Below are positions 27,910-30,807 of a stretch of DNA of 64,000 bases, in pieces. How positions within the stretch are numbered: position 1 is the first letter of the stretch; every line of letters starts with the position of its first letter. The DNA comes from Candidatus Obscuribacterales bacterium. GTDB lineage: Bacteria > Cyanobacteriota > Vampirovibrionia > Obscuribacterales > Obscuribacteraceae. The DNA is taken from the NCBI GenBank assembly GCA_031292355.1, contig JARLHI010000032.1:62001-126000 (forward strand). The letters run 5' to 3'. A model generated the notes under the pieces. The model did no database searches. It was given only the letters and a program-made list of their open reading frames with translations, and had not been told where the DNA came from. A program made the position numbers and the translations under genes.

Positions 27910-28344
27910 ATGAAATCTCAACGATGCTTGCGCGCCGCTTTGAATACATTTGCGATGGGAGAAGTAGATCTCGCCATCCGAAGTTTGAACATCACTTTCA
28001 ATCACGTAACAAATAAAGATTGGTCAGACACAGACACACAAAAAATTCTTTGTAGTCTGTTCAATCTTTACGTGTATGGCTGCCGTTACGAAGAGGCGGC
28101 TTATTTACTTGAACACGCAATATCAGCTGGTACGGCCGCTTTTGGACCGTTCTATAAACAGCTGCCACATCTTTACTACAATCTTGCCGAAACATATGGC
28201 AGATTGCAGGAGCATGAGCTGTGTCAGAAGTATTTTGCTGTTGCTTTGAATTTAGCCAAAATACATCTGGGCACGCAATCGCGCTCTTTTAAAATGATGC
28301 ATGAGCGAGAGGCTGAAATTATCGCTCGCCAATTGAAAGATTGA
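27910..28344 (+). CDS. Small TPR-type protein
   Basis: This 144-residue cytoplasmic protein is all-helical with TPR-like pairs, clearest in YEEAAYLLEHAISAGTAAFG and PHLYYNLAETYGRLQEHELC. The Gly/Ala/Tyr spacing matches the 34-residue TPR, as in the N-terminal domain of the 615-residue protein at 4.4 kb. It probably binds a partner protein; none is identifiable. There is no clear ribosome-binding site before the ATG, which fits translation following the small ORF upstream. Confidence 0.6.
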   Translation: MKSQRCLRAALNTFAMGEVDLAIRSLNITFNHVTNKDWSDTDTQKILCSLFNLYVYGCRYEEAAYLLEHAISAGTAAFGPFYKQLPHLYYNLAETYGRLQEHELCQKYFAVALNLAKIHLGTQSRSFKMMHEREAEIIARQLKD

Positions 28345-28407
28345 AGCGAAAGACATCGAAGGCTGCACATACGTCCCTAAAATGTTCTTTTTGCGTTTTA
28401 ATAAACT

Positions 28408-28462
28408 CGTTACCACAGGTACGGGATTGACGAGAGCGTTACAACATCTCGTCGTGGTAACG
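28408..28462. repeat. TTACCAC-type inverted repeat, downstream copy
   Basis: CGTTACCAC (28408-28416) and GTGGTAACG (28454-28462) form 9-bp outer arms. A second pair, GACGAGA (28429-28435) and TCTCGTC (28447-28453), lies inside and abuts the right arm. The half-site is the same as in the doubled repeat at 29307-29352, on the other side of the 230-residue gene. Confidence 0.7.
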
Positions 28463-28575
28463 CCTTTGAAGACCGTGAACTTGTCATAGCGCTTTTATTA
28501 AAATTCGAAAAACGGTTTTTCGTTAGTCCACCCAACCAATAAGTCTTTCAATCGAGAGTCTTACACTCCGTGAGC

Positions 28576-29268
28576 TTAAGATTTTGATTTTTGCCGTTCT
28601 CTGTATCGACGTTGTTTTTCTGCTTGATAGCTCGGAATTTCAATCTGTTTGCGCACAGCAAATGAATTAAATCGGCAGATGTCAGTGCAAAATTTGGTAC
28701 CTGGTGCGGAAATAAAGAAATCGGCGCATCTTTCTAAGTCGGGTGCCATTGGGGAATCATCGAGAATTTCTTCCTTCCAGGAATTTTCGAGTGAACGAAA
28801 TTTCTTGTAAAAACTTTTGCAATCCTTCAAACTCGTAGTTTTATAGATTGCCTCACACCTTGCCACCGTATATGGGGTCTCGCTGTCAATCGTTTCCCCC
28901 AGAAAGCAAGCGAATTGAAAAAGCACCGAGTCCAGGATTCGCTGTAAGGGATTGTTTTCAATACTGCTTGAGGGACTCAAGGACGGCAATCGACCTCGCC
29001 GCCTTTTGCTTTTGCTGTCGGTTAGCTCTAGCTGCAACTTAGAAAGTCGCTCATTTATGTATTCAAGATCAAGTTTGCGACGAAAGTGTATTGAGGCCAA
29101 TTGCTCTCGCATGTATGACTCGAGATCGCTCATATGCGAGGTTTCCACTGGTGTTAGCTTGATAGTGCTGCCTGCTATCCCTGAAAGAAATTGTTCTGCC
29201 AGGGCTTTTGTTTCCCAAGTGCAGGATTCGTTTAAAAAATCGATCCAATTAAGTTTTTCAGACGCCAT
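28576..29268 (-). CDS. Hypothetical protein with C-terminal zinc-finger-like basic tail
   Basis: The 230-residue protein has a helical N-terminal half and a basic linker (DSKSKRRRGRLPSLSPSSSI). Its C-terminal end reads ERCADFF, then TKFCTDICRFNSFAVRK and a very basic tail (QAEKQRRYRERQKSKS). The Cys spacing and the C-R-x3-F-x2-R segment recall the treble-clef ends of CGNR/ABATE-like or phage zinc-finger proteins, suggesting nucleic-acid binding. AAAGG lies about 11 nt before the ATG. It is bracketed by TTACCACG inverted repeats and divergent from a MATE pump, so a DNA-binding autoregulator or a mobile-element-derived protein are the two best ideas. No family is firmly recognised. Confidence 0.6.
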   Translation of the reverse strand: MASEKLNWIDFLNESCTWETKALAEQFLSGIAGSTIKLTPVETSHMSDLESYMREQLASIHFRRKLDLEYINERLSKLQLELTDSKSKRRRGRLPSLSPSSSIENNPLQRILDSVLFQFACFLGETIDSETPYTVARCEAIYKTTSLKDCKSFYKKFRSLENSWKEEILDDSPMAPDLERCADFFISAPGTKFCTDICRFNSFAVRKQIEIPSYQAEKQRRYRERQKSKS

Positions 29269-29306
29269 GGCGGTTGGACCTTTACTTATTTGATTTCCGC
29301 ACTAGT

Positions 29307-29352
29307 TTACCACGCCCCTTCGTGGTAACGTTACCACGACCTTCCGTGGTAA
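29307..29352. repeat. Tandem pair of TTACCACG/CGTGGTAA palindromes
   Basis: Two 22-bp dyads, TTACCACG-6nt-CGTGGTAA, lie head to tail with a CG between them (29307-29328 and 29331-29352), so there are four half-sites spaced regularly. The junction CGTGGTAACGTTACCACG is itself a perfect 18-bp palindrome. The cluster fills the divergent promoter region between the 230-residue gene and the MATE gene and ends just before the MATE ribosome-binding site. It looks like a multi-dimer operator or a palindromic repeat element. Confidence 0.75.
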
Positions 29353-29364
29353 CAGGTGATTAAA

Positions 29365-30807
29365 ATGTATTCGCTCATCAGGTTAAATCCCTTCCTGCTG
29401 TGGTTTTGCGGTTTTATTTTCCTCGCGAAGAAAAAGCTCGACCGCCTGAGAAAAATCTCGAGGGTAGTGCTGGCTCCTGCAATCCCGATGGCTATAGCTC
29501 TTTGGTTTTCCGCTCTCATCGGGTTGAGCGACGCTTATCTGGCAGGCAAAATGAGCAACACTGCTCTTGCAGCGCTCGGTTTTTGCGAGCCACTATGGTT
29601 TCTGGTTACCCTTTTAACAACCGGCCTTTGCTCGGGCATAGCCGTTGGACTAGCGGCAAAGTGTTCGCGAGACCACATACAAAAGGACGGTGCCAGTCAA
29701 TTTTTCCTGGTAGATAGTTTGATCATTTGCGCAGCTGTAGGATTGCTCTTGCTTTGTGGCGCTCTAATTCTGTCAGTTATTCTAAGCGCCCACCCTTTCT
29801 GGTTGAGCCGTACCGCGCAATTGGTCGCAGATTATTTTCTCGTTTGCGCCTTAAGCAATCTTCCATTTGCCATAATGCAAGGGCAGTGCGCCATATTTAG
29901 AGCGGCTGGTCGAGGTAACAATGTTGTTTTGCTGTGGGGAGTCGCTGCTTCGATTGAGATTGTGGCCAGCAATTTGTTGGTCGATGTCGGCTTTTTAAAT
30001 TTGACCGTTTTGGCTGTTACCTGGACCGTTGCTTGCAGCGTTTCTGCATGGATTGGATTCATTTTAATGAAGCCTCTATTGCAAAATTTTGATCGCCGCG
30101 CTTATTGCCGCAGCAATTGGTCTGCGCATGTCACTACTGTACACGCGGTTCTGAGCGTAGGACTGCCTGTTGCAGTCGGTGAGCTTGGTTTGATCTGTGG
30201 CAGCATGTTGAATCTGTACGTTATCTCTACATTGCCAGGGGCTCATAATTTAGAAGCAGCCTGGGCGATAAAATCGAGACTGGAGGAGGCTTTTGAAGTT
30301 GTTCCGATCTGTGCCATCGGTTTGATTATAGCTCCGTTCATGGGCTGGCATCATGGCGTTCGCTCGAAACGTGTCGCGAATTGGGCTGCACGTATCTCGT
30401 TTCAAGCGGCGATGACAGCCGGCTGTGCCCTATTGATGATCGTGATTCTGATTCAGTTCGCCTCGCGATTTCTCGCTGGTTTCTTCTGTGTCGATAGTCT
30501 TTTGCTGGAGCAAACTGCTCAGGTTATATCGCTTGCGTCGCTCGCTTGGCCGTTTTTTGCGGTCACTTATATTCTTTCAGGTGCTTTAGAAGGCGTACGG
30601 CAAACTCTAATTCCAACAGCCTTGCATATCATTTTTGCTCTTCCGGTTCGACTGGGATTGGCCATCGTTCTCAAAGATTGTCCGCAATTTTCTGGTTTAA
30701 CCGGCGTGACTATCGCAGGCGTAGTTGCTCAAGCGCTTCTGGCGATTGCAATCGTTGCTGTTTTCAGGCGCACTTTTTTCAAATGTCTTGCTCGGCTAAC
30801 TGTCTGA
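29365..30807 (+). CDS. MATE family multidrug/cation efflux transporter
   Basis: The ATG at 29365 (AGGTGA 5-10 nt upstream) gives about 480 residues with around 12 membrane helices. The family pattern is seen in APAIPMAIALWFSALIGLSD, then AALGFCEPLWFLV, GRGNNVVLLWGV and the second-half HAVLSVGLPVAVGELGL. MATE proteins expel cationic drugs or metabolites using Na+ or H+ gradients. An N-terminal extension (MYSLIRLNPFLLWFCGFIFL) forms an additional hydrophobic stretch before the usual first helix. The start region is covered by the tandem palindromes, suggesting control by a protein that binds them. The 3' end overlaps the patatin gene by 29 bp. Confidence 0.85.
   Translation: MYSLIRLNPFLLWFCGFIFLAKKKLDRLRKISRVVLAPAIPMAIALWFSALIGLSDAYLAGKMSNTALAALGFCEPLWFLVTLLTTGLCSGIAVGLAAKCSRDHIQKDGASQFFLVDSLIICAAVGLLLLCGALILSVILSAHPFWLSRTAQLVADYFLVCALSNLPFAIMQGQCAIFRAAGRGNNVVLLWGVAASIEIVASNLLVDVGFLNLTVLAVTWTVACSVSAWIGFILMKPLLQNFDRRAYCRSNWSAHVTTVHAVLSVGLPVAVGELGLICGSMLNLYVISTLPGAHNLEAAWAIKSRLEEAFEVVPICAIGLIIAPFMGWHHGVRSKRVANWAARISFQAAMTAGCALLMIVILIQFASRFLAGFFCVDSLLLEQTAQVISLASLAWPFFAVTYILSGALEGVRQTLIPTALHIIFALPVRLGLAIVLKDCPQFSGLTGVTIAGVVAQALLAIAIVAVFRRTFFKCLARLTV

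Follow-up and report, generated by a model that had tools for sequence, protein, structure and literature searches.

A putative zinc-finger regulator, an operator-like palindromic array and a divergent MATE pump gene in Candidatus Obscuribacterales

The window analyzed here, a stretch of 64,000 nucleotides (G000:C62:62001-126000) of the 6.6-Mb genome of a Candidatus Obscuribacterales bacterium (G000), encodes a 230-residue protein that is probably a zinc-binding regulator occupying, as two dimers, a palindromic array between its own gene and a divergent gene for a MATE efflux transporter, and most likely repressing both; judging from comparative sequence analysis, we assign this reading a probability of roughly 0.78. 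The protein belongs to a small, previously unnamed family of putative DNA-binding proteins that is paired with its own MATE clade in uncultured cyanobacterial relatives. A candidate role in pump regulation that can be tested, together with a putative operator and a promoter arrangement, is thus proposed for a family nameless in the searched libraries, in a host lineage known mainly from metagenomes. Homologues were sought in 99 genomes (G000 and relatives) and in a wider phylum sample of 291 other genomes; most of the genomes compared are metagenome assemblies, and the coding regions are the ORF calls of the present analysis.

The putative regulator and its MATE neighbour

Both genes named in a preliminary description of this DNA are present as ORFs, namely the putative zinc-finger regulator gene at 28576-29268 on the minus strand and the MATE gene at 29365-30807 on the plus strand (start ATG at 29365, alternative GTG at 29356). 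The MATE product matches PF01554 with 37.4 bits against a cut-off of 24.9, and its counterpart at locus L023 scores 126.6 bits. Homologues of the regulator were detected in 26 of the 99 genomes, including G000, all from the same family, and in none of the other 291 phylum genomes sampled. The 26 homologous loci, distributed among 25 relatives and mostly one per genome, encode proteins with 27-35% identity to the 230-residue protein, and the named matches are mostly to Ca. Obscuribacterales or Melainabacteria assemblies.

A divergent MATE neighbour is found at 23 of these 26 loci, or at 24 loci with the window counted, the exceptions being L022, L031 and L027, the last of which lies at a contig edge. 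A single branch separates the 24 neighbouring MATE proteins from 18 other MATE proteins of the related genomes (SH-aLRT 100, obtained with a quick method); because all 24 fall on one side of this fully supported branch, the pairing between regulator and pump looks old.

Two further gene associations were noticed around these families. Where relatives lack the regulator, their best MATE match stands back to back with a gene of approximately 400 codons (L230, L231, L235 and L238-L241), the product of which contains an OLD-like TOPRIM domain (PF20469) in the two examples scanned, L238 and L240; these predicted genes are a second conserved MATE gene pair. Downstream of the regulator, about ten relatives carry a TPR-repeat gene, in some cases with a DUF6348 domain (L006, L007, L008, L010-L012, L017, L018 and L021), and in the window a small TPR gene (27910-28344) occupies the corresponding side of the regulator but lies in the opposite orientation.

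In the 27-row alignment of the regulator family, cysteines C138, C181, C194 and C198 are invariant and the tail (R/K)(F/Y)C(S/T)-x-x-C-RF...KQ(R/K)RY is nearly so. The invariant columns delineate a C-terminal finger with basic helices at residues 178-230 (28579-28737, minus strand), with C138 lying upstream of this region. Together, the invariant cysteines and the basic KQ+RYR tail point to an end of the protein that binds metal and DNA; the four cysteines fit a metal-binding finger, in agreement with the zinc-finger-like basic C-terminus proposed in the preliminary description. The AlphaFold2 model of the protein is confident, with a pLDDT of 86 and a pTM of 0.80. A Foldseek comparison of this model with the PDB returned no credible fold match, a PDB profile search seeded with the protein returned nothing, and the Pfam and NCBIfam searches yielded nothing above cut-off, the closest Pfam resemblance of the C-terminal finger being a weak one to FCS-type fingers. 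The single match in an Rfam search of the operator and repeat loci was a tRNA.

The palindromic array and the predicted promoters overlapping it

The array (29307-29352, assigned to neither strand) consists of four exact copies of the half-site TTACCACG, at 29307-29314 (plus), 29321-29328 (minus), 29331-29338 (plus) and 29345-29352 (minus), that form two 22-bp palindromes with 6-nucleotide spacers (N6) and a period of 24 bp. The perfect palindrome at their junction, 18 bp long at 29321-29338 and extending to the 20-bp TCGTGGTAACGTTACCACGA at 29320-29339, is the best-kept part of the array among relatives. The half-sites, the two 22-bp palindromes, the 24-bp period and the 18-bp junction palindrome had been described before and were found as described. 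A tandem pair of N6 palindromes with the same arms occurred in none of 100 shuffled windows, and single N6 palindromes with 8-bp arms are expected at a mean of 0.99 per shuffled window.

The array is located at the same place in all 24 gaps between regulator and MATE genes (23 loci of relatives and the window), bearing out, together with the divergent gene order, the earlier proposal that the protein, the repeats and the pump belong together. The consensus of the 24 gaps, read in the MATE direction, is TTGACtACcACG-N6-CGTGGTAaCGTTACCACG-N6-CGTtgTAA. Half-sites 2 and 3 are the best conserved, averaging 0.55 and 0.27 mismatches, whereas the outer half-sites average 1.6 and 1.8; in the window, all four half-sites are perfect. 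The two homologous loci that clearly have no MATE neighbour, L022 and L031, have no array either. The finger of the L022 protein is degraded (FCSHICCTSSYEI). Upstream of this gene there is a different palindrome, TTTAACAC...GATGTTAAA, and L022 may be a paralogue that has an operator of its own.

These observations bear on the alternative that the array is a pump operator bound by a different, unlinked regulator, with the 230-residue protein being a co-regulated sensor or adaptor partner. Homologues that lack both array and pump exist (L022 and L031) and speak for such an arrangement. However, the array is found once per genome, beside the regulator gene, and in relatives its core is essentially confined to this locus; moreover, the 230-residue protein itself has a finger-like basic C-terminus, and it is the array-less L022 that has lost the integrity of this finger. 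We therefore consider an unlinked regulator improbable.

In most relatives, the MATE promoter sits inside the array. In the MATE direction, TTGAC is present in 19 of the 24 gaps, fused to half-site 1, and at least four of six matches to TTGACA are found in 22 of the 24; 17 bp from this -35 element, at the array centre, relatives have an extended -10 element such as (TGG)TAACGT or (TGG)TATCGT, the hexamers of which are weak (three and four of six matches, respectively). A promoter scan selected the same -35/-10 pair in L010. The fusion of the -35 element to half-site 1 and the position of the extended -10 element at the centre account for the near invariance of the inner half-sites and the deviations of the outer ones; the deviations of the outer half-site, CTACCACG and CAACCACG, are those required for TTGACT or TTGACA. 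In the window, the -10 position of the relatives (29326-29331, plus strand) reads TAACGT, the -35 position (29303-29308) reads TAGTTT, so that the MATE -35 element is lost there, and the promoter scan detected no promoter-like pair in this gap. On the regulator side, a -10 element (TATAAT, TATACT, TATATT or TACAAT) abuts half-site 4 or lies just upstream of it at 11 of the 24 loci.

The palindromes might instead function as RNA hairpins, forming an attenuator or leader of the MATE transcript, given that each 22-bp unit could fold into an 8-bp hairpin with a hexaloop. Against this, the N6 pairs are kept in 144 and 136 of 176 cases, compared to 158 of 176 for the centre pairs (22 arrays), and the centre pairs cannot form a hairpin because almost no loop would be left. 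Furthermore, substitutions such as CGTTGTAA opposite TTACCACG lack a compensating change, there is neither a T-run terminator nearby nor an Rfam match, and a hairpin function is accordingly very improbable.

Under the preferred reading, with the 230-residue protein as the DNA-binding factor, two dimers would sit side by side on the array, one on each 22-bp TTACCACG-N6-CGTGGTAA unit, covering the start region of the protein's own gene and the span from -35 to -10 of the divergent MATE gene. Both genes would be repressed until a substrate of the pump is recognized by the N-terminal helical domain. Because the bound protein would cover both start regions, repression with autoregulation is favoured. 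We infer DNA binding, zinc, dimers, ligand and the choice of repression over activation, the last from the layout of the locus; activation, or the action of two different regulators, would produce the same DNA pattern.

A dispersed repeat with an operator-like core

The preliminary description placed a related, more widely spaced pair of half-sites at 28408-28462, beyond the other end of the regulator gene. A pair does exist, but its positions had been misread: the true N6 pair consists of TTACAACA (28439-28446) and CGTGGTAA (28453-28460), within a larger repeat, and TTACCACA at 28410 is in the outer arm of the same imperfect palindrome. This palindrome (28390-28508, without assigned strand; TTTTAATAAA ... 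CGTTACAAC-N8-GTGGTAACG ... TTTTATTAAA) represents one member of a dispersed family of intergenic repeats in this genome, the core of which, CGTTACCAC-N8-GTGGTAACG, is the operator unit, spacing included. The repeat beyond the 3' end of the regulator gene therefore does not belong to one unit with the array.

Because half-sites flank the gene in the window, the gene had alternatively been read as a small mobile element bounded by palindromes. This notion is contradicted by the order of gene, array and MATE gene, which is constant in 24 loci from many genera; besides, one copy per genome is the rule, searches for plasmid and viral-contig relatives of the 230-residue gene found none, and the 3' repeat is an independent dispersed one. 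A mobile unit is, consequently, scarcely credible.

Palindromes at many unrelated loci, named in the preliminary description as evidence against its proposal, do formally occur in this genome, but they are due to the repeat; the array is found solely at the regulator. G000 contains approximately 30 further N6-type palindromes, nearly all within an intergenic repeat whose ends resemble TTTAATAAA...TTTATTAAA. The ends of the copies vary, and one subfamily of about 270 bp accounts for 17 to 20 copies, several of them at contig ends. Contigs C57, C70 and C72 end within or beside this 270-bp repeat, which makes a higher true copy number probable. The core pattern occurs at 34 sites in G000, two of which are the operator array, compared to 0-2 in each of 49 family relatives, and the approximately 30 repeat copies are present only in G000 among the 50 family genomes. 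Likewise, the short-form model R1, which matches the window copy and has that copy among its training rows, detected the repeat in G000 but gave no convincing match in 29 relatives. Since the copies were mostly found through the core, part of the apparent conservation of the core in old copies stems from the way they were selected; a search with the flanks only still recovered almost exclusively core-bearing copies. Of 28 copies (the window copy included, loci without near genes on both sides omitted), 14 are in gaps between convergent genes, which comprise 17% of the intergenic bases (P ~5e-5). This bias weakens the idea that the repeats constitute a promoter regulon, and repeats with co-varying cores in relatives were rejected as a candidate because no relative has such repeats.

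The operator is common across genera and the repeat is not, and therefore it seems to be the repeat that took over the sequence of the operator. With a core identical to the operator unit, G000 may carry about 30 extra binding sites. It is conceivable, on balance rather doubtful, that the repeat took up an ancient pump operator, that its approximately 30 copies are bound by the 230-residue regulator and that the regulator, pump and promoter diverged in this genome, the signs of divergence being the lost -35 element, the perfect four-site array and a long MATE branch. If so, the copies could be decoys that titrate the repressor, or a local regulator could have turned into a chromosome-wide binding protein.

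The competing view, that the resemblance of the core to the operator is a coincidence and the regulator does not bind the repeat, has a chance only somewhat short of even. The preference for convergent gaps over promoters, shared with ERIC or MITE-like repeats, and the lack of such copies in relatives are in its favour. Conversely, approximately 9-10 matching positions per arm combined with the same spacing appear very unlikely to arise by chance in one repeat family, and the window's single copy is situated about 70 bp away from the sole regulator homologue gene of G000.

Comparison with known systems

In the TetR-TetA system, the repressor and pump genes are divergent, the operator overlaps both promoters, and the pump substrate is the inducer. 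The locus described here is similar in its back-to-back genes with an operator-like array between them (24 of 24 gaps) that likewise overlaps both promoters, and in the presumed induction by substrate, but differs in the regulator family, in the operator with four half-sites and a 24-bp period, and in the MATE family of the pump.

The regulator itself is reminiscent of ABATE/CGNR proteins, for which ligand sensing and transcriptional regulation have been proposed and which are exemplified by Jann_2411 (PDB 3H0N), a DUF1470 protein with an ABATE domain and a treble-clef finger (PF07336 and PF11706; PMC2954205). The order of predicted elements is similar (helices, beta hairpin, long helix, knuckle hairpin, finger helix), and C194-x3-C198 with a predicted helix at 196-210 is comparable to the CxxxC formed by Cys168 and Cys172 at the N-terminus of the finger helix of Jann_2411. 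An hhalign comparison with nine ABATE/CGNR proteins gave a probability of 39% (pairwise E 3e-4; 115 collinear columns ending at the first finger cysteine), and with a two-row profile only 8%. In contrast, none of the 27 regulator family members matches PF07336 or PF11706 even at E 1, 3H0N was not among the Foldseek PDB matches of the regulator model, a CRF motif is present in place of CGNR, C138 and C181 are 43 residues apart instead of in a C-x4-C knuckle, helices are inserted, and the C-terminus has an additional basic helix. With scores below the Pfam cut-off, no CGNR motif and a different knuckle spacing, we do not call the regulator a member of this group; it is possibly, and at most, a remote relative. 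A true ABATE/CGNR zinc-finger regulator is encoded elsewhere in G000 (L166, G000:C7:287073-287198).

Finally, the dispersed repeat compares with ERIC, REPIN and MITE-like intergenic repeats (PMC10969869; PMC3116915) in being an imperfect palindrome of about 120 bp (within a repeat of about 270 bp in one subfamily), in its intergenic location, in its approximately 30 copies and in its bias to convergent gaps. It matches no Rfam family and, unlike those repeats, has a core identical to the operator of the putative regulator; if the regulator binds the repeat as well, this would provide a clear instance of a mobile-type repeat that disseminates a transcription-factor site.
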